Assembly (NCBI RefSeq): GCF_004297185.1
Contig: NZ_PGCL01000004.1
Coordinates: 1 to 64,000 of the forward strand
Length of the DNA stretch: 64,000 bases
Reading direction: 5' to 3'
Source: Methanofollis fontis
GTDB lineage: Archaea; Halobacteriota; Methanomicrobia; Methanomicrobiales; Methanofollaceae
This document shows, one piece after another, positions 1 through 26,997 of this stretch. Under the pieces are notes generated by a model. The model ran no database searches. It saw only the letters and a list, made by a program, of their open reading frames with translations, and had not been told where the DNA came from. Position 1 is the stretch's first letter; the number at the start of each line of letters is the position of its first letter. The position numbers and the translations under genes are program-made.

Positions 1-105
1 CGCTCTGCTGCTCGTGCTCACCATGACCGGGGACCTTCCGGGCCCCGCCCTATCGCAACGACTGCCTCCCCCCCGAGGGGGGAGGAGGAGCGACCGATAG
101 GGAGC
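1..105. repeat. Dispersed GC-rich intergenic repeat, copy 1
   Basis: Bases 1-32 match the reverse complement of 33904-33935. The following part, from CCTATCGCA near 50 to CGATAGG near 100, forms a hairpin-like unit around a run of C then G, and a similar unit bounded by the same ends lies near 36562-36605. Other family members lie at 31978-32095, 33805-33970 and 36385-36838. Confidence 0.5.
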
Positions 106-243
106 GGGGGAGAGGGGTCGATCCCGACCATCTCCTGTTGTCCCTCATCGGTGTCGCACAAACAAAAAGCCGCACATGTGCAGCGGCGGGTTCCGGGGTG
201 GAGACGGGACGCAAACCGGCAAAAGGGGCGAATTCCATCTTAA
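1..243 (+). CDS. Possible 3' end of an ArdC-like reading frame (partial)
   Basis: Frame 1 is open from the first base to a TAA at 241-243. Its first 32 bases are identical to the reverse complement of a stretch inside the 3' end of the ArdC-like gene at 33792-34784, and both give RSAARAHHDRG in the translated tail. This suggests, but does not prove, that an ardC paralogue or a remnant ends here on the plus strand with most of it outside the window. The same bases belong to a dispersed GC-rich repeat, so the match may be only a repeat copy and the frame may be non-coding. Confidence 0.25.
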   Translation, partial: RSAARAHHDRGPSGPRPIATTASPPRGEEERPIGSGGEGSIPTISCCPSSVSHKQKAAHVQRRVPGWRRDANRQKGRIPS

Positions 244-732
244 AACCTCCCAAAAACAAAACCGGATGGTTTAAGCCGGCTTCCTCCTCACATATCGTCT
301 ATAAAATATCTGATGGCCCATGAACCGTAAGAACAAAACTCCCACCAGAAAACAGACGCCGGAGGAGTCAGTGAGCCAGATCCTGATCAGGGCCATCGAA
401 CAATGGGAAACCCAGGGACGACGGCATAAGCGGTCCGGCTGAGACCGAACACACCCTTCCAGATTTCGGCCCAATTCGCACCGATTTCCGCCCGTTTTCC
501 CGCCCTTTTCGTCACCTCTCCCCACCATTCCGACCCATCGCTCCTGATCACGCTTCCGCACCCCTGGAACTCCAGATGAAACGGCACCATTTCTCCTCAA
601 ATCCCAAAAATACCCTCAGAACACCCCGATCCGAAAAACAGCCCGGAATATCGAGATCTAAACGCTCAAAATCGAAAACTACGCCCAGAATAGAGAGATT
701 GCCGCACAGGAGAAGAGGGGTTTTCACCCCCC
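244..732. other. Region without a confident gene
   Basis: One small minus-strand frame, 387-590 (67 codons), begins at an ATG preceded by GAGGAG only two bases upstream and could be a real short gene, but I recognise no domain and its composition is not persuasive. The last part holds a short hairpin (GAGGGG at 715-720 with CCCCTC at 729-734) that overlaps the stop codon of the 733-1236 gene and could help end its transcript. Nothing else was seen. Confidence 0.3.
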
Positions 733-1236
733 TCAGTTCAGGGCCGCGACCCCGTCCGCCCAGGTCTCGACGGTGGCGAGGATGGCGTCGTCCTCATACG
801 AGGTGATCCGCACGCTCTCGCGGGCGAAGGTGACGTAATAGGTCTCCCCGTTGGCGTCATGGCACCGCAGCTGGCAGCTGAAGGCGTCGGCGTCCGGGTT
901 CCGGACGGCGTCTCCGCCCATGGCCGCCTCCAGGGCGGCGTTGGCGGCGAGTTCGGTGGCGGCGGCGTTGAACCCGGACATATCCGGGGCCTTTGCGCTC
1001 ACCGACCCGACGACGCTGCCCTCGCCGTCCTCGTAGTTCACCCGAACGGTGTAGGACTGGCGGTTGCGCTCCACGCCCGGATGGGTGGACCCACCCTGCA
1101 CATACTCCACGCACCCCCAGGGGTTGGTGGCGATCACGTCGGCGATGATCCCCTCGAAGGTCGCAATATCGGCGATTGCGGCCGGGATCTGCCGGACGGC
1201 GGTCTTGGTGTTGCTGGTCTCGACAAAGTCTGCCAT
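733..1236 (-). CDS. Conserved hypothetical protein of the duplicated divergent module (copy A)
   Basis: This 167-residue protein is clearly homologous end to end with the equally long product of 26494-26997; conserved stretches include SGFNAAATEL, RNPDAD and the final ETWADGV-ALN. The start was set at the ATG at 1236 because the paralogue begins at the same residue (MADF) and AGGAG lies about seven bases upstream. No signal peptide, membrane segment or cofactor motif is visible. The sequence suggests two related beta-rich halves (an exposed YTVKVNYEDE-type strand and a YYV-F-R-S-RVTSYEDD strand). It faces, across a palindromic intergenic region, the small coiled-coil/membrane gene 1336-1578. 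Function unknown; a structural or envelope-associated role is speculation. Confidence 0.85.
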   Translation of the reverse strand: MADFVETSNTKTAVRQIPAAIADIATFEGIIADVIATNPWGCVEYVQGGSTHPGVERNRQSYTVRVNYEDGEGSVVGSVSAKAPDMSGFNAAATELAANAALEAAMGGDAVRNPDADAFSCQLRCHDANGETYYVTFARESVRITSYEDDAILATVETWADGVAALN

Positions 1237-1286
1237 GGTTTGGTACTCCTGCCAGCATGCTCCCGGGTGCATGACAGGCACACCAC

Positions 1287-1307
1287 AATATTACCATAAG
1301 TAATATT
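1287..1307. promoter_or_regulatory. Perfect palindrome in the divergent promoter (operator candidate)
   Basis: AATATTAC and GTAATATT are exact inverted half-sites separated by five bases. The right half overlaps an AT-rich TATA-like stretch about 30 bases before the ATG at 1336, which has no ribosome binding site and so may be leaderless. The paralogous module at 26424-26493 carries two sites with the same core ATTAC-N5-GTAAT (one of them with a mismatch), so this is likely the binding site of a shared regulator. Confidence 0.55.
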
Positions 1308-1335
1308 AATCTGCCTTATCAACACTGTATCGAGC

Positions 1336-1578
1336 ATGGAGGAGCGCAGCACCCGGGAGGTGGTGGCCGAGACCGCCCGGGACGTGAAATGGATCTGCCG
1401 GACGCTTGCACGGATGGAGGAGCAGGGCGACCGGACCGAGGAGCGCCTCCGCTCCCTGGAGGGCTGGCAGAGCGAAACGGTGGGGGAGGCGAGGCGGGAT
1501 AGGCAGATCGCCGCCGGGGCGGGGGGAGTTGTGGGGGGAGCGGTGGCGATCGTGCTGCAGATGATGGGGTGGGGGTGA
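1336..1578 (+). CDS. Small coiled-coil protein with C-terminal membrane segment (XhlA-like topology, copy A)
   Basis: The 80-residue product has a charged amphipathic N-terminal two thirds (DVKWICRTLARMEEQ, then RTEERLRSLEGW) that should form a coiled coil, followed by a glycine-rich hydrophobic C-terminal helix (about 58-78). It is homologous to the 70-residue product of 26211-26423, sharing DVKWI and the ER-R-LEGW block. The layout resembles haemolysin XhlA/holin-accessory proteins of phages, but that is a topology match only. It lacks an upstream ribosome binding site and has a TATA-like stretch about 30 bases ahead, consistent with leaderless translation. It is divergent from 733-1236 with a shared operator candidate. 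Confidence 0.7.
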   Translation: MEERSTREVVAETARDVKWICRTLARMEEQGDRTEERLRSLEGWQSETVGEARRDRQIAAGAGGVVGGAVAIVLQMMGWG

Positions 1579-1606
1579 AGGGTTACCCCTCTTTGCCCCG
1601 GGCACC

Positions 1607-1655
1607 ATCACGCACTGATCACGCATTATCACGCATTGATCACGCACTTATCACG
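1607..1655. repeat. Iterons upstream of orc1/cdc6 (replication origin candidate)
   Basis: ATCACGCA occurs at 1607, 1618, 1628 and 1639, with a fifth partial copy (ATCACG) at 1650; the spacing is 10-11 bases, so all copies face one side of the helix. A further isolated copy lies at 1728-1735, touching the initiator start codon. Phased direct repeats just ahead of an initiator gene are the arrangement of plasmid iterons. Whether the Orc1/Cdc6 protein itself binds them is inference. Confidence 0.65.
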
Positions 1656-1703
1656 GTGAGCCCCATCCCCCCACTTTCAACTTTCGCCCCACACGCGCCG
1701 CAC

Positions 1704-1735
1704 CCCTATATACCGCGACCGCCACCCATCACGCA
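1704..1735 (+). promoter_or_regulatory. Promoter of orc1/cdc6, probably leaderless
   Basis: CTATATA at about 1706-1712 lies some 25 bases before the ATG at 1735, the usual distance from an archaeal TATA box to the transcription start, and there is no purine-rich ribosome binding site. One iteron copy (1728-1735) overlaps the start, so initiator binding could repress its own gene. Confidence 0.5.
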
Positions 1736-2943
1736 TGACACATCACCCCCTCATGGCCGACCAGACGCTCTTCCGCGACCCCGACCTCTTCGACGCCGAC
1801 CACCTCCCCGAGACCTTCCACTACCGCGACACCCAGATGGAGGCCCTCGCCCTCTCCCTGCGCCCCGCCCTCCGCGGCGGTTCGCCCCTGAACACCGTGC
1901 TCCGCGGCCCGCCCGGCACCGGCAAGACCACCGCCGCCCGCTACATCTTCGCCCAGGTCGAGGAGACGACCTGCAGGGTCGTGCCCATCCTCGTCTCCTG
2001 CCAGGCGGAAAGGACGGCGCACACCGTCTACACCAAACTCTTCACCGCCCTCATCGGCCACCCGCCACCCTCCCACGGCACCTCCGGCACCAGCCTCCTC
2101 GCCGCGGTGGGCCGCACCCTTGCGGAGCGGGGGACGGTGCTCGTCGTCGGCCTGGACGACGCCAACTACCTCGCCCCGAAGGGAGTGCTGAACGAGGTGC
2201 TCGCCCGCATCCTCCGCCTGCACGAGAGTTATCCCGGGGCAAGGACCGGCGTGGTGATGACCGACTCCTCCACCGACACCGATCTCTCCCGCGTCCTCGA
2301 CCGTGCGACCTACTCCGTGCTCTGCCCGAACGAGGTCGCCTTCCACCCCTATACCGCAGAGGAGGTGCGGGGCATCCTTGGCGACCGCCTGCAGGTCGGG
2401 GTGTATCCGGGCGTTGTGCCGCCGGCGGTCCTGGACCTCGTCGTCGAACGGACGGTGGCCTGCGGAGACGTGCGGGTGGGGCTGCACCTCCTGAATGAGG
2501 CGGTGCTCCATGCCGAGCGGGCGGGGAGGACGGCGGTGGAGGTCGGGGACGTCGAGGCGGCGTTTGCGGTCGCCAGGCACACCCGCCTTACCGCCGGTGT
2601 GCAGACCCTCGCACCCCAGGAGAGGGCGGTGCTCTCTGTGCTTGCGGGCATGGTCCGGCGGGGGGAGGAGACGACCTCGGGCCGGGTGTATGAGGCGGTC
2701 GCGGCGGTCGAGCCGATGTGTTATACGAGGTTTTATGAACGGTTGAAGAGGCTGGAGGCGCTGGACCTGGTGACGAGGCGGCAGCGGAAGATCGGGCAGG
2801 GGTGGACGCGGGAGATCGTGGTGCGCGAGGGGGTGGAGGAGATGGTCGGGCCGGTGCCGGCAGGTTCATCGGGGGCGTCGTTACAGTCTGTTACAGGAGT
2901 TGCTGAGGATGAAAAATGTCGATATGAAGGTGGACGGGGATAG
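1735..2943 (+). CDS. Orc1/Cdc6-type AAA+ replication initiator
   Basis: The 402-residue protein has the archaeal Orc1/Cdc6 layout: an N-terminal segment, Walker A GPPGTGKT (58-65), Walker B VLVVGLDD (135-142), a sensor-1-like VVMTDSS (173-179), a helical lid region, and a C-terminal winged-helix domain (about 300-385). Such proteins bind origin DNA and load the replicative helicase. Its position directly behind phased iterons and inside an integrase-bearing element points to the element's own initiator rather than a chromosomal copy. The ATG at 1735 was chosen because of the TATA box 25 bases upstream; an in-frame ATG at 1753 is possible. The C-terminal tail overlaps the next gene by 35 bases. 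Confidence 0.9.
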   Translation: MTHHPLMADQTLFRDPDLFDADHLPETFHYRDTQMEALALSLRPALRGGSPLNTVLRGPPGTGKTTAARYIFAQVEETTCRVVPILVSCQAERTAHTVYTKLFTALIGHPPPSHGTSGTSLLAAVGRTLAERGTVLVVGLDDANYLAPKGVLNEVLARILRLHESYPGARTGVVMTDSSTDTDLSRVLDRATYSVLCPNEVAFHPYTAEEVRGILGDRLQVGVYPGVVPPAVLDLVVERTVACGDVRVGLHLLNEAVLHAERAGRTAVEVGDVEAAFAVARHTRLTAGVQTLAPQERAVLSVLAGMVRRGEETTSGRVYEAVAAVEPMCYTRFYERLKRLEALDLVTRRQRKIGQGWTREIVVREGVEEMVGPVPAGSSGASLQSVTGVAEDEKCRYEGGRG

Positions 2944-3088
2944 GCTGGTGATCACGGTCGATCTCTCACAGGAGTTTGGGGCGTCGAAGACCGGGAAGTC
3001 GATCACGATCGCCTCGACCGAGGGGAATGTGTCGGTGCCGGGGCGGGAGGAGATCAAGATCGGGGTGAATGTGTATAGGAAGAAGTGA
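2909..3088 (+). CDS. Small hypothetical protein downstream of orc1/cdc6
   Basis: The 59-residue product starts at an ATG preceded by a GGAG about ten bases upstream and overlaps the end of the initiator gene by 35 bases in another frame, indicating co-transcription and probably coupled translation. The sequence is beta-rich and hydrophilic (MKVDGDRLVITVDLSQEFG early, EIKIGVNVYRKK at the end) with no cysteines or membrane segment. I do not recognise the family. Its coupling to the initiator suggests a role in element copy control or replication, which is inference. Confidence 0.6.
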   Translation: MKNVDMKVDGDRLVITVDLSQEFGASKTGKSITIASTEGNVSVPGREEIKIGVNVYRKK

Positions 3089-3108
3089 GGTATTGTTGTG
3101 GCGCCGGG

Positions 3109-3300
3109 TCATGCGGCCGGGCTTTTCATGCGACGCCCCTTTTTTGCAGGCTGCTCTTTCACATATTTTGCAATGATCCCATCAACATCGGCCGGATTGA
3201 ACGAGACATCGGCATGCCAGGTGCCAAAACCGCCGTGAGCGTTGATGGCCTGGACCCACTCGGCACGATCTTGGACGCCGGGGGCGGAACCGTCTCACGA
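3109..3300 (-). pseudogene. C-terminal remnant of a restriction-type helicase
   Basis: The minus strand reads EWVQAINAHGGFGTWHADV followed by SFNPADVDGIIAKYVKE and a short basic tail to a stop at 3109-3111. The INAHGGFGTW block is like the conserved tail of type III/DEAD-box restriction helicase subunits, where an NHGGFGRW motif is common. Upstream the frame is closed by a TGA near 3295 and no helicase body follows, so only the tail survives. The family assignment rests on this one motif and is tentative. The rest of 3089-3403 shows nothing else. Confidence 0.4.
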
Positions 3301-3403
3301 CACCCGAGTAGAGGGAGGAGTCCTCAATTCTTTCTGGACATCCTGGGTGTGTGAAATCAATACGTACAAGTGTTCATACACACAACCGGAAAAAGAGCGA
3401 TCC

Positions 3404-3787
3404 ATGGTAGACCTCACGGTTAAAATGATCATCGAAGTCCAGATCCATATTATCATGGCGAGTAAACACCAGGAGGACGAAGGAACCGAGGGGCTTGTAC
3501 GTGACCACGGAACTCTCGATTATCTCGTCGATGAGATGAATTACATCAATGATTCATGCACTAAGGCCGCCCTGATGCTCCATGGCATTGCTTCCCGGCA
3601 CCCGTTTTATCAGGGAAATAAACGGACCGCACTCGCCATTGCAGAAATAATCCTCATGCTCGAAGGTGGATGGTATATTGCTGCTGAGGATGAGGCGATC
3701 GATCTCTATGTACGTGAAGTTGCGTGTTATCAGCATGACCTTAATGAAGTGAAATGCTGGCTTCAGAAAAACTGCCAAAAAATGTAG
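3404..3787 (+). CDS. Fic/Doc (death-on-curing) family protein
   Basis: The 127-residue protein carries HPFYQGNKRTA at 66-76, the Fic/Doc signature; Doc toxins use HxFx(D/N)(A/G)NKR to phosphorylate elongation factor Tu, while classical Fic enzymes end in GNGR and add AMP. Here the lysine is Doc-like but the usual D/N is a glutamine, so activity cannot be assumed. A longer frame exists upstream, but the ATG at 3404 fits the family start. No Phd-like antitoxin gene is seen on either side. Base composition is lower in GC than its left neighbours, suggesting separate acquisition. Length agrees with Doc proteins (about 126 residues). Confidence 0.75.
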   Translation: MVDLTVKMIIEVQIHIIMASKHQEDEGTEGLVRDHGTLDYLVDEMNYINDSCTKAALMLHGIASRHPFYQGNKRTALAIAEIILMLEGGWYIAAEDEAIDLYVREVACYQHDLNEVKCWLQKNCQKM

Positions 3788-3789
3788 GA

Positions 3790-4080
3790 TTAATGCTGGG
3801 CCAGGAGATCATATGCCCGCCTGTGCCTCTGCATCGAGAGTTCGAGGGCGGCCCGCTCGACGGGGGTGAGTCCTTTGTCTTCTTTACCGTGATCTACCAG
3901 TTTGAAGGCACTATCTAAGTTATATGTTGTAGTTTCACCGATGGTGAAGGTGCCGCGAGGGACAAAAGAGCCCGAGCTTCCAGCGACCATAGTAGAGTTT
4001 TCCGATGAGCGGAAACGATACGGTCCGATGGATTTCATGAATCCCTCTTCGTTATTCGAATTTATCATCCTTGGATACAT
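3790..4080 (-). CDS. Hypothetical protein of the serine protease cluster
   Basis: The 96-residue product begins at an ATG with a strong GAGGAGGTG just upstream, and the gene starts 18 bases after the stop of the SDH-type protease, so it is the last gene of a three-gene leftward set (5613 to 3790). It has a glycine/serine/threonine-rich middle (about 30-55) and a charged helical C-terminus (SMQRHRRAYDLLAQH). No motif or membrane segment is visible and I do not recognise the family. Possibly a substrate, adaptor or partner of the protease; this is only inferred from position. Confidence 0.6.
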   Translation of the reverse strand: MYPRMINSNNEEGFMKSIGPYRFRSSENSTMVAGSSGSFVPRGTFTIGETTTYNLDSAFKLVDHGKEDKGLTPVERAALELSMQRHRRAYDLLAQH

Positions 4081-4098
4081 GCTGGCACCTCCTCATTT

Positions 4099-5199
4099 TT
4101 ACTGGATTATCTTCCAGCCTTGTGACATAGGTGTTACGTTGATATTAATGTTCAGATCTGGATTCCTGATCGCATTGATCATAATTCTTGATCGATAGTC
4201 ACTTCGAATTCTCGTGCTCTCGACCGTTGCGTTAAAAAACTCATAATAAATAGGTTGTACAGGTACAACAGAGACGTTCTGTAAAAATTGCTGGTAGATC
4301 TGTTGAAGAAGATCGGGAGGGAGATTGGCCGGCACCTGTATCTGGGGCACCGGCCCGATCTGCTGGGATAGGACAGGGTTGGCCATAGCAACTTCAAAGG
4401 GATTGAATGGCTCATTACATCTCATCTCTCCTTCGAGATCTTTCCAGACTTCCCAGATGAGGGTTTCAAGGTCATCTGGAGCTTCTATGATAGGAAGCCC
4501 AATCTTTTTCGCCTCTGCTCGTCCAACCGGGTAGCCGTGATGATAAAAGGATTTATTGAGGGCTTCTGAGATCGCCCGCACTTTGTTCTGGTCGTCCATA
4601 TGGAGGCTGAGAAGTTTTTCTCCGAGGGAGAGAGCAAGGTTTGAACTTCGCTTTGCAGCTCCGATCGGAACTGTACCAACCTCTTTACAGAGGAGTTCGA
4701 AGGCACGTTCTTTCTGTGCCTGGTCTGTAATCCCAACATCAGACTGGACAAAGTCAATGAAATGCGAGAGGTCCTCGGCTGCAAAGTCCAGGCCTTCCCG
4801 TTTTCCCTCATTGTTCTTTTCCACATGGAGTTGTGGATCCACAGGGCCAAGGTTTGAGAAAGGGTGCATGATGATCTCGTCTGCACCGAGGGCGAGGAGC
4901 GTTGCAGCACTGTAGGCCTGGTATGGGAGGAGAACCCCGATTTTGTCGAACCGTTCTCTAAGCATACTGATTATGCGCCATGAGACAATCGGATCGCCTC
5001 CCTCGCTGACGATGAGGATATCGACCCCGTGTGCGGTCGTGGGAAGTCGTTGGATCTGCTCGCAAAACATCGGTATTGCATCAGATCCCATGCGCCCTCC
5101 ACCACCATCGCTACGGGAACTGGTGACATAGGTTATCAAAGGTCGCTTTCGTACTTCTTCGATCTGTTTATAGAGTTCTACCCGCTCGGCATAGCCCAT
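4099..5199 (-). CDS. SDH-family Clp-fold serine proteinase
   Basis: The 366-residue protein matches the SDH_sah family (serine dehydrogenase-type proteinases, relatives of SppA/ClpP). SEGGDP at 65-70 would form the oxyanion-hole strand and QAYSAATLLALGADEI around 94-109 carries the candidate nucleophile Ser97; HPFSNLGPVDPQ at 112-123 is the conserved following loop. No signal peptide is seen, although SppA relatives act at membranes. The C-terminal third is less conserved and rich in glutamine and asparagine. It sits between a two-helix membrane protein (5251-5613) and a small unknown (3790-4080) in the same direction, so it probably acts at the membrane with them. Confidence 0.75.
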   Translation of the reverse strand: MGYAERVELYKQIEEVRKRPLITYVTSSRSDGGGGRMGSDAIPMFCEQIQRLPTTAHGVDILIVSEGGDPIVSWRIISMLRERFDKIGVLLPYQAYSAATLLALGADEIIMHPFSNLGPVDPQLHVEKNNEGKREGLDFAAEDLSHFIDFVQSDVGITDQAQKERAFELLCKEVGTVPIGAAKRSSNLALSLGEKLLSLHMDDQNKVRAISEALNKSFYHHGYPVGRAEAKKIGLPIIEAPDDLETLIWEVWKDLEGEMRCNEPFNPFEVAMANPVLSQQIGPVPQIQVPANLPPDLLQQIYQQFLQNVSVVPVQPIYYEFFNATVESTRIRSDYRSRIMINAIRNPDLNININVTPMSQGWKIIQ

Positions 5200-5250
5200 A
5201 TACTACCCTTTGTCTGTCCCTATATGAAGGTACTGAAATTTTACTGGGCG

Positions 5251-5613
5251 TCAGTGTAGAAAGGCCACGATGAAAACACATCCAATCAAAAATCCTATCA
5301 CAAAGAGAACTATGCCCAGAGCGGCACTACCAGCACCGCAAGCCATCTTAAAGATCTCTAGGGCTCCAATAACGGCCATTATTGAAGAAAAAACAGCAAA
5401 AATTGCCCGGAATGAGGAAAAATCAGATTCGGGGCTGATCTCTTCGCAGACTTCGACGGTGGTCTCGAATACCTGACCAACAATGGCCTCGGGTTCGGCC
5501 TGGATGCCGGTCTTCAGAGCGATACCGGCAAATATCCCGGCGCAGAGTCCTTCAAAAAATATTTTAGTCTCTGGGGACTGGCCGGGGGAAGTTGTATGCC
5601 GTCTCCGTGCCAT
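5251..5613 (-). CDS. Small membrane protein upstream of the SDH proteinase
   Basis: The 120-residue product has a hydrophilic N-terminus, a weakly hydrophobic segment near 22-36 and two strong membrane helices near 70-86 and 96-118 (ALGIVLFVIGFLIGCVFIVA). It precedes the protease gene by 51 bases on the same strand. I do not recognise the family. The pairing suggests that it anchors or is processed by the Clp-fold protease; that is inference from position only. Confidence 0.6.
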   Translation of the reverse strand: MARRRHTTSPGQSPETKIFFEGLCAGIFAGIALKTGIQAEPEAIVGQVFETTVEVCEEISPESDFSSFRAIFAVFSSIMAVIGALEIFKMACGAGSAALGIVLFVIGFLIGCVFIVAFLH

Positions 5614-5682
5614 ATATGACGATCAGATCGCTCCTTCAAAATGCTTTGTGCTCAATTGGTCGGGCACGCCGGGAGGAGGCGG

Positions 5683-7365
5683 TCAGGAGGCGCACGAACC
5701 GACGACCGCCTCGATCAGTCTGGTGCCGGTCTCCTCCCGCTCGGCGATGCGGGCGTCGAGGGCGTCGCAGAGGGCCATGAGGGCGTCGACTTTGGCGACG
5801 ATGCGGTGTTGTTCGGGGAGCGGGGGGAGGGGGAATGGCATTTTTGAGAATCTATTTGCTCCAAGATGAGCAATGTTTGTTGTCTGTTTTGCGATTTTTA
5901 GAAACTTTCCAGCATGCAAGTAACACCTAAAGACGATCAATGCATACTCCGGGATAACAATCTTGAATGGTCGAAAACGAACTAACGTGTTCTGGAAACA
6001 TGCTCCTGGCACTTCATTTCGATATATCGCTGGCCTTCCCACTAATTCTCTACTCTGACCTTCATTTAATAAGATATCTCCAAACTGAAGTCTAAATATC
6101 TCATATTCTTTTGGTGAAAAATTCATCTCCAAAACATCATTGGTATCAATTCTATCTTCATAGACATTTGCAACGCGGAGATAGGGTCTCATATAAGGGC
6201 CGGTGTGGTTTTTAGGGGATCGTTGACGGCCTAGTTTTACTTCTCCTACAGCATGTGTGGACAACCATTCCCACAGATCTGGAATGCTGAAGAATCCCCG
6301 TGCATCTTCATTTGAATTCTTTTTTGATTGTTTTGACACATTATGAAACGGCACTTCAATTTGCTCTATATCTGAATGTGTAAACCGCCAATCAGATGTT
6401 AAAAACCCTTTAATTGCCAATGAAAATACCGTCTGCCGCAGCGCCGCCACGTTCTCGCGGGAGTCGAAGATCAGGTCGAAGTTCCCGGCGACAAGCGCCC
6501 AGGCGTCCTCGAACGCCTCCGCCTCTGAAAGGGCGGCGAGCGCCGCCGTGCCGAGGTTCGTGTGCGTCTCCCGCTGCTCTGCCTGCCGTGCTTCGAGGGC
6601 GTCGCAGAGAGCCATGAGGGTGTCGACCTTTGCGACGATGCGGTGCTGCTCGGGGAGCGGGGGGAGGGGGAATGGATTCCTTGAGAAATACTCTCTGGGA
6701 ACCCTCTTCTGACCTGCTGATCCGGTCATCTTTGAAACGCCATTATTTATGAATCCAGGAGATTTGAGATAAATCAATACGTAAAAAGGGTTTAAAAGGT
6801 CGCAATGTGAACGGAACACATGTAACTCAGTGGTTCCAGCTCCTATGCCGCCAATTAGATCATCTATTACAGCAGATTTTCCATTTTGAAAACAGGGAGT
6901 TATTTTTGCACAAACTACGTCATTGTTAGCAAAATGTGTATATCCACCATTCTTGATTTCTCTCCACTTACGAGGTTCAGAGCATATTTTTGATCCGTAC
7001 TTTTCAGAGATAAGAGTCATAGGAACAAAGGAGGTATCCATGTCATCCGGGATTCCTTTGTTTCTCGGATTAATTGTACCAATCTCTTCGAGCCTCGTCC
7101 ACACCCACCCCGCCGGCACCGCAAACGGCACCTCATCAACCGCCGGCAAAGGCTTCGCCTTCTTGATCACGCCCTCCCGCACCAGCCGCCGCTTCTCCGC
7201 CGCGATCCGCTCCAGCAGCACCGACGCCGGTTCGTCCGCCGGATCCTGCGGCACCAGGCGCCCCTGCACCGCCAGTTGCAGGATCAGTTGCCGCAGTTTC
7301 GCCACGCCCCCCGGCGCCGCAGCGAGGGCGGCGAAGTGGTCGAGGAGGAGGGCTTCAGGTCTCAT
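5683..7365 (-). CDS. hsdS: Type I restriction-modification specificity subunit HsdS
   Basis: The 560-residue protein has the two-repeat HsdS layout: an N-terminal helical region, target recognition domain 1, a conserved spacer, target recognition domain 2 and a second conserved spacer. The spacer sequence LPPLPEQHRIVAKVD followed by LMALCDALEAR occurs after the first domain and again near the C-terminus, each forming the coiled-coil ruler that sets the gap between the two half-sites. The ATG at 7365 is chosen over an upstream TTG at 7404. It is the last gene of a leftward set hsdR, hsdM, AlbA_2, hsdS. The recognition domains are more AT-rich than the spacers, as is common for exchanged specificity modules. 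Confidence 0.9.
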   Translation of the reverse strand: MRPEALLLDHFAALAAAPGGVAKLRQLILQLAVQGRLVPQDPADEPASVLLERIAAEKRRLVREGVIKKAKPLPAVDEVPFAVPAGWVWTRLEEIGTINPRNKGIPDDMDTSFVPMTLISEKYGSKICSEPRKWREIKNGGYTHFANNDVVCAKITPCFQNGKSAVIDDLIGGIGAGTTELHVFRSHCDLLNPFYVLIYLKSPGFINNGVSKMTGSAGQKRVPREYFSRNPFPLPPLPEQHRIVAKVDTLMALCDALEARQAEQRETHTNLGTAALAALSEAEAFEDAWALVAGNFDLIFDSRENVAALRQTVFSLAIKGFLTSDWRFTHSDIEQIEVPFHNVSKQSKKNSNEDARGFFSIPDLWEWLSTHAVGEVKLGRQRSPKNHTGPYMRPYLRVANVYEDRIDTNDVLEMNFSPKEYEIFRLQFGDILLNEGQSRELVGRPAIYRNEVPGACFQNTLVRFRPFKIVIPEYALIVFRCYLHAGKFLKIAKQTTNIAHLGANRFSKMPFPLPPLPEQHRIVAKVDALMALCDALDARIAEREETGTRLIEAVVGSCAS

Positions 7366-7404
7366 GGCATCTCTGTCTCCAATCATTCTCCAATCATTCT
7401 CCAA

Positions 7405-7609
7405 TACAGGTGTTCACATCTCGAATCATATCGGTTAATTGCGTGATTCCGGGCAGAATTATTGGAATCCATTCGACAATCTTCGACAATCCGATCCCCA
7501 ATCGTCCCCCAATCCCGGTTTCAAGATCTCGATGTATTAATGCTTATTTTGAAATTCAACTGATAATATTTGAGATCTTTTCGCCAATCTTCCCCAATAC
7601 TTCCGCCAA
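7405..7609 (-). other. Decayed extension with GATTGG repeats between AlbA_2 gene and hsdS
   Basis: Read on the minus strand the region is dotted with GATTGG (GGAGAATGATTGG twice near the hsdS end, more near 7480-7510 and 7570-7610). Directly after the TGA of the AlbA_2 gene the frame continues as LAEVLGKIGEKISNIIS before another stop, and a second frame reads ETGIGGRLGIGLSKIVEW. Repeated gly/ile linkers followed by a C-terminal winged helix are common in AlbA_2 ATP-binding proteins, so this looks like a broken-off linker or tail of that gene. Confidence 0.35.
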
Positions 7610-9292
7610 TCATGCATCATCCCGGGTGCCGGGGGTGAGCACCCACGTCGCTCCCCTCGTCCTCCCGACCGTCGTGATCGTCCCCTCCTTCCGCATCTCC
7701 TGAAGCAGATCCTTGATGAACCGGCGCTTTTGCTCCTCATTCAGAGCATCGGAAACCTTGTCCAGCAACAGGTTTTCTATCTCCCCTCTCTTCGCCTCAT
7801 GATACGCCAGGAGGTATTCCACCACCATATCCTTGAAATATGCCCTATCAAACGACCGATTTCGAATATAATCAGCCCGTGTATCGGTTTTTGCTGCCAC
7901 AATCTCCGAAACATACAGGTTCGGATGCCGCCCCTCGATCAGGTTCTTCTTCCGCAGGAGATCCCGCTCCTCCTTCGGGATCGGATACCCCTTCTGCACC
8001 CGATCGAGGGCGATCACATCCATAAGCGTCAGATCCTTATGCTCGATCAGCATCCGGGTGTAGCGCTCATCGATCACCCGGCCCGGAATCGTGACCTGCA
8101 CCATCCCCTCCTCATCGAGATCATAATCAGGCATCGGGAAATTGCGGTCCCACTGCTTCCGAAACATCCGCCTGATCCCGCTGCCGACGGTGTCGATCAT
8201 ATTCAACTCCACCATCGCATTCGCAAGGAAGGGATTCCGGTAGCGGTCAGGCGGCATATCGCGCTCGATCACATTCAGCACCGTCCCCGGAATAAACTCG
8301 CCGCGGTTGGTAAACATCAGAGAACCCGGCCGCTCGGTCACCGTGATGCGAGCCGCCTGCCGGTAATCCTGGTGGGCGATGCAGTTGTGCAGCGCCTCGC
8401 GGATCACCCAGGGGTCGTACTGCGTCACCTCCAGAGGAAAGAGGGTTTCCCCTGAAATATGGCGGACCGTAAGATTCCTGACCTTCTGAAAGACCCGGTC
8501 GACCGCGAGGATCAGCGGCGGCCCGAAATGGGCATAATCGACGTTATCCCCGCCCTCGTCCCTGAGCACCCAGACAATATGCGCAACGGCAGGCGAGAGG
8601 AGAGACGCCGCCTCGCTCCTGCCCAGAAGGATGAGTGCGGCATTCGTCACCCGGCCCTGAACACAGACCTTCGCCTCTGTAAGGAACGTACTGTCGTCCC
8701 ACTCATCGACCTCGTCTGCAAGATCCCGGTGTTTCTCCTTGTATTTCTCCCGCGCAAAGGCGATCGCATCGGGATCGAGATCCGCGAATGTTGCACTCTC
8801 GCAGACCTCCGCCGACCAGTCGTCCTGCGGGGCCTGCCGGCGTATTGCCTCGATCTCATAGAGGGCAAGCGGTTCGAGAGACTCATGGTTCCGGCCGTAG
8901 GCATAACCTTTCCACGTCGTCGGAACGCCACGCGGGGCCGGAGGGATCTGGAACATCACCACCCGTTTCCCCTCGACCATGAGTTCGTGAACGGCGGCAA
9001 ACGAGATACGGTGATTCGTATGCTGCGCAATCTCCTCCTTGAGACGATCGAGGCCCGGCGGGGTGAGGCGGTAGTGTGAGTCGACAATCGTCCTGGGCGG
9101 ACGGTCGGTGACGCCGAAGATCAGCCAGCCTGCCGGCTTCCCGTGCAGATTGGCCTCGTTGCTCAACGCCGAAAAATATTTGCCGATTTTGTCGAAACCA
9201 TAATCGGTTTTTGCTTCCTTGAACTCAATCCACTCGGTCTCGGCCGGAAGATCCATCATCTCCCGCAGTTGAGCATCCAGATCCCCCGGCAT
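7610..9292 (-). CDS. AlbA_2 (Schlafen-like) DNA-binding, ATP-binding protein
   Basis: The 560-residue protein starts with an AlbA_2/Schlafen domain (ETEWIEFKEAK near 18-28, then SALSNEANLHGKPAGWLIFG), followed by a middle region and a GHKL-type ATPase-like segment (EALHNCIAHQDYRQA near 300, GSGIRRMFRKQW later), the architecture of COG2865 proteins. Such proteins are often inserted in type I restriction loci, where they are thought to regulate or complement restriction. The ATG at 9292 is chosen because GGAGAGG precedes it; a GTG at 9313 overlapping the hsdM stop (ATGA-like) is the alternative. The family's usual repeat linker and C-terminal winged helix are missing. Confidence 0.8.
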   Translation of the reverse strand: MPGDLDAQLREMMDLPAETEWIEFKEAKTDYGFDKIGKYFSALSNEANLHGKPAGWLIFGVTDRPPRTIVDSHYRLTPPGLDRLKEEIAQHTNHRISFAAVHELMVEGKRVVMFQIPPAPRGVPTTWKGYAYGRNHESLEPLALYEIEAIRRQAPQDDWSAEVCESATFADLDPDAIAFAREKYKEKHRDLADEVDEWDDSTFLTEAKVCVQGRVTNAALILLGRSEAASLLSPAVAHIVWVLRDEGGDNVDYAHFGPPLILAVDRVFQKVRNLTVRHISGETLFPLEVTQYDPWVIREALHNCIAHQDYRQAARITVTERPGSLMFTNRGEFIPGTVLNVIERDMPPDRYRNPFLANAMVELNMIDTVGSGIRRMFRKQWDRNFPMPDYDLDEEGMVQVTIPGRVIDERYTRMLIEHKDLTLMDVIALDRVQKGYPIPKEERDLLRKKNLIEGRHPNLYVSEIVAAKTDTRADYIRNRSFDRAYFKDMVVEYLLAYHEAKRGEIENLLLDKVSDALNEEQKRRFIKDLLQEMRKEGTITTVGRTRGATWVLTPGTRDDA

Positions 9293-9309
9293 CGCCCTCT
9301 CCACCCCGA

Positions 9310-10758
9310 TCACTCCGCCCGCATGAGTGATTGGGTCAGTTCCTCCTTAAGTTTCTCTCTCGTCTCCTCCACCGCCGCCGACACCGCCCGGTAGCGGGCG
9401 AGCAGTTTCACCGGGTCACCGTTCTCCTCCACCGGCGTATTCGGGTTCTTGATATCCAGGTTGTAGTTGTTCCGCACGATCTCGGCGATCGGCACCCGCC
9501 AGGCGTGCTCGTTCTCCTCCCGGTGCTCCCACCACGCCTTCTCCGCCTCGAACTCCTCGATCCTGATCGGCTTCGTCTTCGAGTACGACTTATAGCCCTC
9601 GGGATACGGGTGCTCGTAGTACCAGACCTCCCGCGTCGGCTCCCCCTTCGTAAAGAAGAGCAGGTTCGTCCTGATCCCCGTATAAGGGTTGAACACCCCG
9701 TTCGGCAGACGCACGATCGTATGCAGGTTGCACTCCGAAAGGAGCTTCTCCTTCACCCGCGTCTTCACGCCCTCGCCAAAGAGCGTCCCGTCCGGCAGCA
9801 CAATCGCCGCCCGCCCCCCGTCCTTCAGCAGGTGAGCGATCAGCACCAGGAACAGGTCCGCCGTCTCCCGCGTCTGGAACGCAGACGGGAAATTGCTCTC
9901 GATCCCGTCCTCCTCCATCCCCCCGAACGGCGGGTTCGTCACCACCACGTCCACCCGGTCCCGCGGCCCATAGTCCCGCAGGGGCCGGGCCAGGGCGTTA
10001 TCGTGGCGGACCTGCACCGGCACATCGATCCCGTGCAGCATCATATTCGTCGTGCAGAGCAGGTGCGGCAGCGGCTTCTTCTCGATCCCGTGAATCGAAC
10101 GCTGGAGCAGTTGTTCGTCCTCCACCGTCTTCACCTGCGCCGACCTGATGTTATCGATCGTCGAGGTCAGAAAACCCCCGGTCCCGCACGCCGGGTCCAG
10201 CACGACCTCCCCCAGCTGCGGGTCCGCCATATCCACCATGAACTGCGTCACCGCACGCGGCGTATAATACTCGCCGGCATTCCCCGCACTCTGGAGGTCT
10301 TTCAGGATCTTCTCGTAGATATCGCCGAAGAGGTGGCGGTCCTTCGAACTGTTGAAATCGATCTCGTTGATCTTGTTCGCCACCTGCCGGATCAGCGTCC
10401 CGTTCTTCATATAGTTGTACGAGTCCGCAAACACGCCCCGGATCACATGCTCCACCCCGGAGCCGTCGAGCCGCGGCTGGAGATCCTTCAGCGTCGGAAA
10501 CAGGTCATTGTTCACGAAATCCAGCAGGGCGTCTCCCGTCACTCCCTCGGCATCCGCCGCCCAGGCCCGCCACCGCAACCGCCCCGGAATCGGCGAGACA
10601 TACCCGTCGTCGAGGAGTTCATACTCCTGCTCCCGGTCGTCAAAGATCTTCAAAAACAGCATCCAGCCGATCTGGCTGATCCGCTGGGCGTCGCCGTCCA
10701 CCCCGGCGTCTTTGCGCATAATGTCCTGAATGCCCTTGATGGTCGTGCTGATCGACAT
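9310..10758 (-). CDS. hsdM: Type I restriction-modification DNA methylase HsdM
   Basis: The 482-residue protein has the HsdM N-terminal helical domain followed by an N6-adenine methyltransferase domain: GEYYTPRAV at 162-170, the AdoMet-binding DPACGTGGF at 188-196, and the catalytic NPPFGG at 275-280. It would form the M2S methylase with HsdS and the full restriction complex with HsdR. It lies 55 bases after hsdR on the same strand, and its stop is immediately followed by the AlbA_2 gene. No damage is visible. Confidence 0.93.
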   Translation of the reverse strand: MSISTTIKGIQDIMRKDAGVDGDAQRISQIGWMLFLKIFDDREQEYELLDDGYVSPIPGRLRWRAWAADAEGVTGDALLDFVNNDLFPTLKDLQPRLDGSGVEHVIRGVFADSYNYMKNGTLIRQVANKINEIDFNSSKDRHLFGDIYEKILKDLQSAGNAGEYYTPRAVTQFMVDMADPQLGEVVLDPACGTGGFLTSTIDNIRSAQVKTVEDEQLLQRSIHGIEKKPLPHLLCTTNMMLHGIDVPVQVRHDNALARPLRDYGPRDRVDVVVTNPPFGGMEEDGIESNFPSAFQTRETADLFLVLIAHLLKDGGRAAIVLPDGTLFGEGVKTRVKEKLLSECNLHTIVRLPNGVFNPYTGIRTNLLFFTKGEPTREVWYYEHPYPEGYKSYSKTKPIRIEEFEAEKAWWEHREENEHAWRVPIAEIVRNNYNLDIKNPNTPVEENGDPVKLLARYRAVSAAVEETREKLKEELTQSLMRAE

Positions 10759-10813
10759 GAACCCTTAAACCTCGAACTCTCCAGAATGGTTGGCGCTCAC
10801 AGCAGATAGAAGG

Positions 10814-13117: not shown

Positions 13118-13331
13118 TTGCGAAATCAGTCCTCTAAGGTTGGTAAATACCAATAGATGACTCCTGACAAAAATAAACTCTTGGATCGGGTTCTCTGAAG
13201 GTTTGTTCGGAGGAGGAGGCACTGTTCGGGGCATGGCAGAGCATCACCGGAATGAGTGCTTCCGTCGTCTGTACTCGCCCTGCTTTCTTTTCCCGACACC
13301 TTTTTCCGAACGGGAGGTGTATTGCCAGTAC

Positions 13332-13781: not shown

Positions 13782-13789
13782 GGGATCAA

Positions 13790-15845: not shown

Positions 15846-15851
15846 AATATC

Positions 15852-16010
15852 TTACTTTTTGACAATATCCTTCATATGAATTAGATTTTTTGATTTTAGT
15901 GCCACTATACGGACTTGATTGTCTTCTCCAACTCGTACTTCAGCGTCACAAATGTCTTCATAGCTCAGATAATCACGTGTGAAAGATCTGATTTCACTTA
16001 ACCCAGGGAC
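15852..16010 (-). pseudogene. Truncated small gene ahead of the PIN-GNAT gene
   Basis: A minus-strand frame ends six bases before the PIN-GNAT start and reads RSFTRDYLSYEDICDAEVRV then KSKNLIHMKDIVKK. It has the AT-rich composition of the following gene but no ATG, GTG or TTG before it runs into the GC-rich membrane gene at 16010. This looks like the 3' part of a gene, perhaps a partner such as an antitoxin, cut off where the AT-rich island joined the element backbone. Confidence 0.4.
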
Positions 16011-16240
16011 TATTTCCCCGCATTCCTCACCCCCACGACCGCCATCACCCAGTAAAACGCGAACATCACCACCACGTACACGTTCCCGGTCACCGCCCCA
16101 TACGCCACCCAGAACAGGTTCCCGATCACCCAGGCACCAAACCCACACGCCCGCACGCCAGGACTCCGCCCGGCCACCAGCACCGCTCCCGCCATCCCGA
16201 GCACCACCGCCGGCGTCTGGAGGGGGTCGAGGGGGATCAT
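16010..16240 (-). CDS. Small membrane protein, last gene of the PrimPol operon
   Basis: The 76-residue product has two to three hydrophobic segments (about 9-24, 32-50 and 53-70: NVYVVVMFAFYWVMAVVGV). Its ATG overlaps the PrimPol stop codon as ATGA (16237-16240), which shows translational coupling. The family is not recognised. It ends exactly where the GC-rich backbone meets the AT-rich PIN-GNAT island. Confidence 0.65.
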   Translation of the reverse strand: MIPLDPLQTPAVVLGMAGAVLVAGRSPGVRACGFGAWVIGNLFWVAYGAVTGNVYVVVMFAFYWVMAVVGVRNAGK

Positions 16241-18999
16241 GCGATCCCCTTCTGCACATTCCAGGCCCGCACCAGGCGGGCATAACAACCCTCGCACAAC
16301 CGCGTCCGGCGGTCCTCAGAAACGAACACCGCCCGCCCCTCCCCGCAGAGGGTGCAGCGCCCCAGATCGGTCGAGACCCGCGTAAACTCGGCGTGCTCCA
16401 GCACGCCCGGCAGGGGGTCCTGCAAGATCCTCTCAGCACTTCCACCGTTTTTCAGCGGGTTACGGGGGGCGGCGTCAGCCAGAGGTCCGAGGTGTGCCGC
16501 CCGTTCCCGGCGTTCTCCATGTTCCGCCGAGATTGGTGGATCGCTCTCATCATTCCGGGGTTCACACCCACACCCACACACACCCGCACCCACACCGGTC
16601 CGCTCATGTGCGTGTGTGTGTTGCTGTACTCCAGTACTGAGAGAGAGACGCGTCTCTCTATCTGTACTAGTACTAAGCGATCCAGAACCGTTCCCCACAC
16701 TCTCGACCTCGCGTCCGGCGCTGCCATCCCGCGGCAAACCTGCTGGAATGCTGGAAGGATCAGAGGGGCCGGGACCACCGTCCCGGTCGTCGTCGTCCCC
16801 CTCATCGATCCACACCCCGGCCCCGAATGCCCAGCGGCGATAGACCGCGGGATCGAAGGAGAAGAGGTGCTCCCTCCGGCGGACCACCTGCCCGGGCCCG
16901 TCCTCGGTGATCATCGTATCAAAGTAACTCACCGCTGGGCACTTCTCCAGGAGACCGGAGTAGGTGGTGCCGCGGCTGGTGTAGCCGTTGAGGATCCGGT
17001 AGGTCTGGTGGTAGGAAAGCCCCAGGGCCGACTGCAACATGCGGATCGTGAACTGGGTCCAGCCCATCGCCGCCACCGTCTCCAGGGCGGCGGCCTCGTT
17101 CTTCGTGAGTTTTGTCTCCTGCCCGCCGGACTCGCCGTTGATCGCCGCATAGATCCGGGCGGCGGTCTCGAAGTCCTGCCGATTCGCCCGGATGCCGCCG
17201 TCGTACTCCTCCCGCTGGAAGCGGTGGAGCAGGGCCGAGGCCTTGATCAGGTCAAAAAGGATGCCCGGGTTGCGGCGGTTGGCCGTGACCGTGAACTGGA
17301 TCCGCCCGGCATAGGGGACCGAGACATGGAGGCGCTCCTCCTTGAGAATATCCCAGACCGCCCGGCAGATGGGGAGGTCTGCGTCCTCGCCGTCGCCACC
17401 GTCCTCTCTTGCCTCGGCCTCCTTCATGTGGGCGAGCACCCGGGCGTCCTGCTCGACTGAGTCGTCGATCCAGACCGTGAGCATGCGGTTCATCACCTGG
17501 TCGTCGCCCGGGTCCTCGACGCGGGCGAGCCACCAGACGCAGCGGTCCGGTATCCGGCAGACCTGCAGCTTGCGGTCCGGGGTGACGGTGCGGTGCTCGA
17601 TCCGCTGCCTGAAGTTTGCCGTGGCGGCCTTCAGAACCTCCTGGAGGTCGTCGGATAACGACACGTCATCGAAGAGGAAGACCGTGCCGGCCCGGAGGTC
17701 GTCATGGTAGTAGAGCGCCTTGTTGGAGACGCTGCCGGCCATGCGGTAGCCCTCCGGCACCTGCCGGAGCATCGTGGTGCAGGCATGACTCTTCCCCTTC
17801 CCGGAGGTGCCGGAGACCGAGACGTGCAATCCATTCGTGTTCTCCACCGACTGCGAGGCCAGGGACATCACCAGGCACTCGGCGACGATGCGGTCGCCCA
17901 CGTGCTCGCGGTTGAAGGTGTCCAGCAGGAACCGGAGGGGGTCGGCGTAGGTGAGGATCTCCATCGCCCACTCGCGGACCTCAGGCGCCGGGGAAGGGGG
18001 CGGGGGAGGTGGCGGCACCTCCTCCCTCTTTTTCTTTGGCTCGTGTTTCTCACGCAGTTCGGGCCAGCGCTGCACCCCGCCGCCGCAGGAGGCATGGTGG
18101 CAGCCGGCGTGGACCGCTCCGCTCGGGAACTGTATGGCAAAGGCGCCGTCGTGGTGGGCGCCTGAGAACGGGCAGTCCTCGAGCACATAGAGCGTGCCCC
18201 CCTGCCAGGGGCGGGTGCTCCGCACGCCGATGCCGTGCTCACTGAGCCAGCGCCCCAGGTCGATCCCCTTCGAGGTCGGCGCCGGGGCCTCGGTCGGGAG
18301 GAGGGCGGCGATCGACCGCAGGAGATCGAGAGAGACCGCCTCCACCTCCCCGGGCACCGAGAGCATTCGTGCCCGGCGGTGCGGGCGTTCCGGGGTGTGG
18401 TCCCCTTTTCGGGAGCACGTCCCATAGAGTTTCCAGATCCGGGCGGGGTTCGAGTTGGCGGTGTCCACGGTGACGTGCTCATCCGAGAAGAGGGCGTCCA
18501 GGGTGGTGAGCACGCCCTTCACGAGCCCCCCGTCGTCGTTTGCGAGGTCCACCGCATAGAGCAAATGCGCCCCGTTGCCCGAGTCGGCCCGGATGGGGGC
18601 GGGGAAGCCCCGGTCGCTGAGCCAGAGGGCGATCTCGTCCGCTTTGCGCAATGCCGCCTCGTGCTCGTCGTCCGTCGAGGAGACCCCGCTCGGCCGCACC
18701 GGGTCGAGGTCGACCGGGAGCCAGCGGCGAGAGAGGATGTCGGCGTCAGAGGTCGTGGGATCGCTCCGGGAGAGCCGCATCTTCACCCGGTTCGCCCGCC
18801 GGGCGAGCAGCGCCGGGTCCACGCGGTTCAGGGTGATATAGATCCCCTTCAGGTCCGGGTCGGCGTCCAGGGCCGCCACGGCCTCCGCACATCGCGTGAG
18901 ATCGTCAAAGTAGCCGGAGTGGGTGAAGCGGTCCGAGAGGGCCCGCACCTCCACCACATCCCCGGGCGGCACCAGGGCCGCGAGGGCTGTGGCGATCAT
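16237..18999 (-). CDS. PrimPol (archaeo-eukaryotic primase) fused to a helicase/ATPase
   Basis: The 920-residue protein has an N-terminal AEP primase-polymerase with the three catalytic motifs: VDLDP (DxD at 97-99), SGNGAHLLY (140-148) and VDTANSNPARIWKLYGT beginning at 178. A Cys/His cluster (C276, H282, H283, C300, H301, H302, C305) resembles a zinc site. After a proline-rich linker (about 329-340) comes a P-loop ATPase with GTSGKGKS (397-404) and VFLFDD (440-445), and a C-terminal CTLC...CEGC zinc knuckle. Such fusions prime and unwind plasmid or virus DNA. Overlaps ATGA with both the preceding and following genes. A low-complexity patch near 780-850 is rich in Thr/Ser/Gly. Confidence 0.88.
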   Translation of the reverse strand: MIATALAALVPPGDVVEVRALSDRFTHSGYFDDLTRCAEAVAALDADPDLKGIYITLNRVDPALLARRANRVKMRLSRSDPTTSDADILSRRWLPVDLDPVRPSGVSSTDDEHEAALRKADEIALWLSDRGFPAPIRADSGNGAHLLYAVDLANDDGGLVKGVLTTLDALFSDEHVTVDTANSNPARIWKLYGTCSRKGDHTPERPHRRARMLSVPGEVEAVSLDLLRSIAALLPTEAPAPTSKGIDLGRWLSEHGIGVRSTRPWQGGTLYVLEDCPFSGAHHDGAFAIQFPSGAVHAGCHHASCGGGVQRWPELREKHEPKKKREEVPPPPPPPSPAPEVREWAMEILTYADPLRFLLDTFNREHVGDRIVAECLVMSLASQSVENTNGLHVSVSGTSGKGKSHACTTMLRQVPEGYRMAGSVSNKALYYHDDLRAGTVFLFDDVSLSDDLQEVLKAATANFRQRIEHRTVTPDRKLQVCRIPDRCVWWLARVEDPGDDQVMNRMLTVWIDDSVEQDARVLAHMKEAEAREDGGDGEDADLPICRAVWDILKEERLHVSVPYAGRIQFTVTANRRNPGILFDLIKASALLHRFQREEYDGGIRANRQDFETAARIYAAINGESGGQETKLTKNEAAALETVAAMGWTQFTIRMLQSALGLSYHQTYRILNGYTSRGTTYSGLLEKCPAVSYFDTMITEDGPGQVVRRREHLFSFDPAVYRRWAFGAGVWIDEGDDDDRDGGPGPSDPSSIPAGLPRDGSAGREVESVGNGSGSLSTSTDRETRLSLSTGVQQHTHAHERTGVGAGVCGCGCEPRNDESDPPISAEHGERRERAAHLGPLADAAPRNPLKNGGSAERILQDPLPGVLEHAEFTRVSTDLGRCTLCGEGRAVFVSEDRRTRLCEGCYARLVRAWNVQKGIA

Positions 19000-26210: not shown

Positions 26211-26423
26211 TCACAGTCCGAAGAGGCGGAGGAGGAGGGCGCCGATGTTCAGGCGGGGGCGGTGCTCGGTACCGGCGTGCTCCCGTCGCCAGCCTTCCAG
26301 TTCCCGCACCCGCTCTTCGAGTTCGTCGTGTGTCTCCTTGATCTCGTCGAGGGACTCCCGTATCCATTTCACGTCGCAGGCCACCTCGAAGAGCATGTCC
26401 CGGACGGTGGTGTCGTCAGGCAT
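26211..26423 (-). CDS. Small coiled-coil protein with hydrophobic C-terminus (copy B)
   Basis: The 70-residue product is homologous to that of 1336-1578, sharing ACDVKWIRESL and EERVRELEGWRREHA, but its C-terminal hydrophobic segment is short (LNIGALLLRLFGL). The ATG at 26423 has no ribosome binding site and follows a TATA-like stretch near 26445-26460 at about 27 bases, consistent with a leaderless message. It is convergent with and only three bases from the 510-residue gene, and divergent from 26494-26997. Role unknown; see the copy-A entry. Confidence 0.7.
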   Translation of the reverse strand: MPDDTTVRDMLFEVACDVKWIRESLDEIKETHDELEERVRELEGWRREHAGTEHRPRLNIGALLLRLFGL

Positions 26424-26425
26424 AA

Positions 26426-26474
26426 AATTACTATCGGTAATTGAGATATATTAATATATTATCACCAGTAATAT
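26426..26474. promoter_or_regulatory. Two palindromic operator candidates in the copy-B divergent promoter
   Basis: Site 1 (26426-26442) is AATTAC, five bases, GTAATT, placed between the TATA-like stretch and the ATG of 26423. Site 2 (26456-26474) is ATATTA, seven bases, TAATAT, which aligns with ATTAC-N5-GTAAT with one mismatch. Copy A has a perfect site of the same core at 1287-1307. The conserved core across two diverged copies suggests a common regulator. Confidence 0.55.
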
Positions 26475-26493: not shown

Positions 26494-26997
26494 ATGGCCG
26501 ATTTCACGCAGACCTCTGTAACCAAGACCGCCGTGCGGGAACTTCCCGCCCCGATTGCCGACGCCGCCACCTTCGCTGGCATCATCGCCGACATCATTGC
26601 AAACAACCCCTGGGGCTGCACCCCCTATACCTCGGGCGGGGTGGAGCACGCCGCCGTGGAGAAGGCGAGCGAGTCCTACACCGTGAAGGTGAACTATGAG
26701 GACGAGGAGGGCGCCGTGATCGGCGACGCCGCCGTGGATTGTCCCTCGCTCTCGGGCTTCAACGCCGCCGCCACCGAACTCCAGGGGAACGAGGCCCTCG
26801 AGACCGCCGTGGGCGGGGACGTCGTGCGCAACCCGGACGCCGACACCTTCAACTGCCGGCTGAAGTGCCACGCCGCCAACGGCGAGCTGTATTATGTCTC
26901 GTTCACCCGCAAGTCGGTGCGGGTCACGTCCTATGAGGACGACTCCATCCTCACGACCATCGAGACCTGGGCGGACGGTGTGACGGCTCTCAACTGA
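26494..26997 (+). CDS. Conserved hypothetical protein of the duplicated divergent module (copy B)
   Basis: The 167-residue product is the paralogue of 733-1236, with identical length and long shared blocks (NPWGC near 35-39, SGFNAAATEL, RNPDAD, TSYEDD, ETWADGV). GAGGTGA precedes the ATG by six bases. The protein is acidic, has three cysteines at most per half and no signal peptide or membrane helix. The module pairs it with the divergent coiled-coil/membrane protein 26211-26423. Abundant structural or secreted-shell proteins can look like this, but nothing in the sequence proves it. Confidence 0.85.
   Translation: MADFTQTSVTKTAVRELPAPIADAATFAGIIADIIANNPWGCTPYTSGGVEHAAVEKASESYTVKVNYEDEEGAVIGDAAVDCPSLSGFNAAATELQGNEALETAVGGDVVRNPDADTFNCRLKCHAANGELYYVSFTRKSVRVTSYEDDSILTTIETWADGVTALN

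Follow-up and report, generated by a model that had tools for sequence, protein, structure and literature searches.

What maintains a divergent pair of genes, together with the palindromes lying between them, and which process the pair serves are the questions raised by the window, the 64,000-nucleotide stretch of the Methanofollis fontis genome analysed here. Two modules, A and B, each combine the gene for a 167-residue protein with that for a small coiled-coil protein (cc family) read in the opposite direction (Table 1). The coordinates, the gene pair and the palindromes reported in the initial annotation proved correct and far beyond chance: the core ATTAC-N5-GTAAT is present in A, B has one perfect and one single-mismatch site, and the window holds three operator sites versus 0.61 expected from shuffles. 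The two longer proteins are, as had been noted, equal in length and highly similar (68% identity), and the corresponding genes, with a dN of 0.27 and a dS of 0.77 between A and B, are therefore under purifying selection. Modules A and B were thus recovered as described, but the total in this genome is five rather than two, comprising A, the diverged B and, on contigs C1, C2 and C3, three further modules nearly identical to A, in which the 167-residue protein is 98%–99% identical to that of A. Comparison within the genome delimits the near-identical unit to just ~1.15–1.6 kb, beyond which the flanks differ. The hydrophobic C-terminus attributed to both small proteins is strong in A but weak in B (best 17-residue hydropathy of 2.15 and 0.55, respectively). 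Over the 2.36-Mb genome, the 17-bp pattern WATTACN5GTAATW occurs six times, and its reversed control does not occur; each of the five modules has one of these sites in front of it, and the remaining site falls within a cas6-like gene.

Table 1. Features of the two modules, of their carrier element and of the predicted regulator (positions refer to the window unless a locus is named)
Feature	Position	Strand	Remarks
Module A, 167-residue orphan family protein	736..1236 (stop codon to 733)	-	Near-universal in Methanomicrobiales; AlphaFold2 pLDDT 88.8
Leader hairpin of the 167-residue gene	1251..1279	-	Loop CCCGGG; directly before Shine-Dalgarno GGAG; predicted mRNA 5' end
Operator A	1287..1307		AATATTACCATAAGTAATATT = AATATTAC-N5-GTAATATT; overlap with the TATA region presumed for the two divergent promoters
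Module A, small coiled-coil protein (cc family)	1336..1578	+	80 aa; hydrophobic C-terminus
Tandem 10-11-bp iteron-like repeats	1602..1654		GCACTGATCAC type; downstream of cc, ahead of the Cdc6-like gene
Orc1/Cdc6-like AAA+ initiator of the carrier element	1735..2943	+	Pfam AAA_22, Cdc6_lid, Cdc6_C
Primase-polymerase/helicase-like replication protein	16237..18999	-	920 aa; motifs of primase and ATPase recognized by eye
Module B, small coiled-coil protein	26211..26423	-	70 aa; shortened hydrophobic end
Operator B, site 1	26426..26442		AATTACTATCGGTAATT; perfect core
Operator B, site 2	26458..26472		ATTATCACCAGTAAT; ATTAT-N5-GTAAT, one mismatch; half-site variant as in the host HcyBio promoter
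Module B, 167-residue orphan family protein	26494..26997	+
HTH(XRE)-2xCBS regulator	L193:3262-3816 (G048); L229 (G000 C3:16382-16930); L214-L235

The 167-residue family was found in 126 of 135 good Methanomicrobiales genomes, often in multiple copies (up to 15 matches within one genome), and had no match outside this order in a phylum sample of 392 genomes. It matched nothing in Pfam, NCBIfam, PHROGs, PADLOC or PDB sequence searches, scans of phage records and IMG/VR yielded no virus or plasmid relatives, and neither module protein is described in the libraries searched, in agreement with the lack of a described function remarked on initially. The AlphaFold2 model, obtained from 12 homologues (pTM 0.79), produced no Foldseek match with E < 0.001 in PDB or BFVD, the TM-scores by query length being at most ~0.3. 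The protein is acidic (pI about 4.2), its invariant residues include W40, C42, C125, H126 and a C-terminal ETWAD, and domain profile searches recognized no DNA-binding domain in either module protein. Two assignments were not supported, namely that to phage structural proteins, with no homologue in phage and virus collections and no fold match, and that to toxin–antitoxin pairs, the genes being divergent rather than co-directional and matching no toxin or antitoxin family. The internal stop of homologue L050, the single stop-containing homologue inspected, was likewise dismissed as a functional feature, as this is a decayed copy in which both conserved cysteines are gone.

Profile searches and neighbour analysis showed that the pair co-occurs in other Methanomicrobiales genomes, in the families f1, f3, f4 and f5. 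The cc gene is present at 26 of the 28 f1 loci (divergent at 25) and at 24 of the 27 f5 loci (divergent at 19), and adjoins the 167-residue gene at the single f3 locus and at 20 of 22 f4 loci; it was never found beside that gene at the 79 f6 loci or the two f2 loci tested. At many f6 loci, the 167-residue gene is instead followed on the same strand by a gene whose product has a hydrophobic N-terminal segment in Methanoregulaceae and a signal-like N-terminus in Methanospirillum, and 45 of 159 copies of the gene lack all three partner types. The type of partner tracks the gene tree, with 16 changes versus at least 67 in 200 label shuffles. Apart from Methanospirillum and Methanoregulaceae, some genus labels on the genomes of relatives are our assumption from family size and G+C content. 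The initial view of pair, orientation and operator as one selected unit, with the palindrome conserved upstream of homologues, describes f1 well, where the operator scores at least 11 of 12 at 23 of 28 loci, but does not extend to f6, all 79 loci of which lack both the pair and the operator, none being found at Methanospirillum modules. Where pairs have been split (L077, L085, L088 and others), a site can persist at each gene, at about -67 of the 167-residue gene and shortly upstream of the start of its partner. Among Methanoculleus-family modules, just five of 22 have a good operator (at least 10 of 12) and many pairs are without one, so that the pair can evidently do without it. A module remnant at L201 (G089 C2:362500-369000, ~1870-3240) retains the operator and the leader, the start of its 167-residue gene being joined, in another frame, to a RecG-like C-terminal protein.

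The supposition that the operator is private to the module was not borne out, the identical dyad being present at the genes for HcyBio, AdoMet synthetase and a protein combining an XRE-type helix-turn-helix with CBS domains (XRE-CBS). In a tally made by hand over 26 genomes, 67 operator sites were counted, of which 31 belong to modules or to the remnant of one, 18 are located at the homocysteine biosynthesis gene HcyBio/L-ASST (13 read directly and five deduced from CBS matches), two at AdoMet synthetase and two, probably three, at a gene whose HTH_3 product contains two CBS domains; the 13 sites elsewhere are at chance level (12 for the control pattern). In M. fontis, the HcyBio site is TATTATTGTGAGTAATA, with the same half-site variant as the second site of B, and the XRE-CBS site is AATCACCTTGAGTAATA, both being one- or two-mismatch variants of the operator. 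A version of the operator (ATTAC/ATCAC-N5-GTAAT; score 9–11 of 12) was present at every one of the 19 XRE-CBS orthologues whose start could be read, nearly always 17–21 bases upstream of the start codon; the regulator is apparently autoregulated, and its predicted regulon includes HcyBio, NIF3, which is often divergent from HcyBio, and AdoMet synthetase in several Methanomicrobiales families. Since the operator is common to the modules, HcyBio, AdoMet synthetase and XRE-CBS, the module is predicted to belong to a host methionine/SAM regulon, and the inserts appear to be wired into the sulfur-amino-acid control of the cell. The f6 genomes have the XRE-CBS gene and the HcyBio site, their 167-residue genes being without operator; the XRE-CBS gene was not found in the three Methanospirillum genomes and one Methanocorpusculum genome checked. 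HcyBio proteins of the Methanomicrobiales studied contain two CBS domains. In Methanosarcina, the CBS domain of the HcyBio subunit allows control by SAM, and the NIL domain of its partner binds methionine (PMC12068725); by analogy with this CBS control, SAM is the predicted ligand of the regulator. Exact operators outside modules and HcyBio occur at L205 (3265, 10896) and L208 (3224); both loci contain primase-polymerase homologues, so that other element genes may join the regulon.

These relationships set the module apart from the systems it resembles. L-aspartate semialdehyde sulfurtransferase genes (MA1821/MA1822 type, HcyBio PF01837 plus CBS; PMC12068725) have ATTAC-N5-GTAAT in common with the module in many genomes, but encode a metabolic enzyme unrelated in sequence to the module proteins. 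The bacterial regulators MetJ, MetR and SahR (PMC4239095) carry out the same predicted task, sulfur-amino-acid control, whereas XRE-CBS would be a different, archaeal regulator that also takes in a module of mobile elements. No description of the operator, the regulator or the module was found in the open-access literature surveyed. The comparison places, as a new element, an orphan mobile-element module under a putative host metabolic operator, and predicts for Methanomicrobiales a methionine/SAM regulon with its regulator, targets and binding site.

Two other readings of the palindrome have to be weighed against control by a host regulator. One of the module proteins might itself bind the palindrome and repress the pair, the likeness to a host regulon being borrowed or coincidental; elements often bring their own repressor, and the concentration of exact sites at modules in M. 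fontis (five of six) is in line with this. We nonetheless consider such self-sufficiency decidedly unlikely, given that neither protein has a recognized DNA-binding domain, that the longer one is strongly acidic and that HcyBio bears the same site in 18 of 26 genomes, including some whose modules are site-less. It is more improbable still that the palindrome is merely a bidirectional TATA box for the two divergent genes. The palindrome is AT-rich, the presumed TATA element falls within it or next to it, and TAATATTA is identical on both strands, but the whole dyad is kept at each gene of split pairs, lies upstream of the TATA box at HcyBio and directly precedes the start codon of XRE-CBS.

Promoter geometry and the leader of the 167-residue gene suggest how control by the host regulator might operate. 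Binding should repress this gene, whose presumed TATA region overlaps the dyad; the dyad of HcyBio is instead placed upstream of the TATA box, where the regulator might activate, and the sign of regulation may differ between the two. The leader contains a predicted hairpin, the best averaging -12.7 kcal/mol versus -8.1 in shuffled leaders (letters shuffled singly, not by dinucleotide), and hairpins of -8 kcal/mol or better were found in 107 of 123 homologues versus 25 of 50 shuffled leaders. It adjoins the Shine-Dalgarno sequence in most homologues; copy B has no hairpin. The CCCGGG loop is carried by the f1/f3/f4/f5 group and, being self-complementary, makes loop–loop dimers possible. TATA-like boxes tend to sit 20–26 bases upstream of the hairpin, with much scatter, and the hairpin therefore probably coincides with the mRNA 5' end. 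One pair changed on both sides in the aligned group, and Methanospirillum leaders gave no consensus fold, their stems being unaligned; with covariation this scant, it is mainly energy and position that argue for the hairpin, which had no Rfam match. In the leaders of the window (1251-1279) and homologues L011-L191, structure is kept more than sequence. A role of the hairpin as a recombination site instead of an RNA leader was rejected; it is not the boundary of the copies, because identity between those of the M. fontis genome continues through it.

The genes surrounding the modules point to plasmid-like carriers. A Cdc6-like gene is found near 29 of 47 cc-type modules, a primase-polymerase homologue near 17 of 47, and one or the other at 32 of the 47 cc-type loci with long flanks; elsewhere, such neighbours occur at 16 of 26 Methanospirillum loci and seven of 49 others, compared with three of 20 controls, which are shorter loci. 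Most partnered copies appear to reside on integrated plasmid-like elements that encode Orc1/Cdc6-like and primase-polymerase proteins and bring defence cargo. The replication protein in the window had no Pfam match, and its N-terminal third shares 35%–45% identity with the DNA polymerase of a Bacteroides phage and with a stretch of archaeal plasmid. Between it and the initiator gene, the cargo comprises, among others, genes of type I restriction and a candidate defence gene recognized by PADLOC; the latter (14328-15845) encodes a PIN-like/EVE-domain protein matching the candidate family PDC-M11A (E 3e-158). The neighbours of the copy on C2, read by eye, resemble a type I CRISPR-cas set, and over positions 1-19000 of the window, L007, L008, L009, L052 and L055 the cargo is variable, including type I restriction genes, CRISPR-cas-like genes and HEPN/MNT-like pairs. 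Integrated archaeal plasmids and mobile elements with an archaeo-eukaryotic-type primase and Orc1/Cdc6 likewise encode an initiator, a primase-polymerase and cargo, but the module itself is not described for them in the papers found, and the carriers reported here were recognized by their initiator and replication genes.

Taken together, comparison of the genomes argues for the conservation and linkage of the module, its co-regulation through one operator and its membership of the regulon; we infer which regulator acts, with what ligand and in which direction, and that the two proteins act jointly. Accessory to integrated plasmid-like elements of Methanomicrobiales that carry an Orc1/Cdc6-like initiator, a primase-polymerase and defence cargo, the module would be held by a host HTH(XRE)-CBS regulator on the ATTAC-N5-GTAAT dyad of the common promoter region, the same regulator controlling itself, HcyBio and, in two genomes seen, AdoMet synthetase. 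A fall in what the CBS pair binds, most probably SAM or a related compound, would open both module promoters, and the hairpin predicted to lead the mRNA of the 167-residue gene, just before the Shine-Dalgarno sequence, should protect the transcript or boost its translation. The outcome would be an abundant acidic, cytosolic 167-residue protein of unmatched fold, and the coiled coil cc could be tethered to the membrane by its hydrophobic tail; that the 167-residue protein acts there through cc is a guess. This reading as a whole, an accessory module under the host methionine/SAM regulon, we hold to be probable, with real room for doubt. It would link an unnamed, order-wide archaeal family without fold match to a metabolic signal, exemplify how defence-carrying mobile elements can be connected to a metabolic switch of their host and, through that link, make the function of the orphan family directly testable. 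A bolder version, in which an element effector senses host SAM or methionine through the host regulator and, when SAM falls upon starvation or viral interference with methylation, delivers a membrane-tethered coiled coil and an abundant new-fold protein to protect the element or the host, is speculative and rather unlikely.

What the proteins themselves do admits two further explanations. The 167-residue protein could be a subunit that builds the coat or sheath of vesicles or particles produced by the element, its partner serving as membrane anchor. Its predicted strong expression, unmatched fold and multi-copy genes would fit, as would the hydrophobic segments or signal-like N-termini of partners from three lineages; the protein has no viral relatives or fold match to viral proteins, however, and many Methanoregula-like copies have neither a known partner nor element genes nearby, which makes a structural role quite unlikely. 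The initial reading of the small protein as XhlA- or holin-like could be extended to a provirus lysis cassette, in which the 167-residue protein would be a lysis or virion component. Like the XhlA-type small phage membrane proteins (PF10779; PHROG hemolysin and unknown families), cc has a short coiled coil followed by a hydrophobic C-terminus, evident in A. Weak matches in PHROG link cc to unnamed phage families (E 2e-6) and one of its members to a hemolysin family (E 0.0016), and the replication proteins of the carriers are of phage/plasmid type. The best XhlA match, in one of 15 cc members, nevertheless reached 13.4 bits (E 0.09) with a Pfam gathering cut-off of 34.7 bits; B has no convincing membrane segment, no lysis or virion gene was recognized among the annotated neighbours in the part of the surroundings scanned, and the longer family, near-universal in the order, had no relative in phage records or in two scans of IMG/VR. 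Unlike XhlA-type proteins, cc is encoded divergently from an unrelated orphan protein under a common operator. The holin reading is weak, and a lysis cassette very unlikely.

Several smaller features concern the carriers and their assembly. The iteron-like repeats beside module A also occur in L055 and are a possible origin or set of iterons. A conserved TTCACTTTCACCCC-like motif precedes the TATA box of Cdc6-like genes (window ~1672-1735 and L008-L087) and is a possible origin-recognition element. No consistent tRNA neighbour or flank that would point to insertion of the carrier element into tRNA genes was found. The ends of contigs C4 (window 1-162) and C2 (L007:12471-12632) have a near-identical 162-bp stretch in common, and the assembly therefore probably broke at a repeat beside the module.
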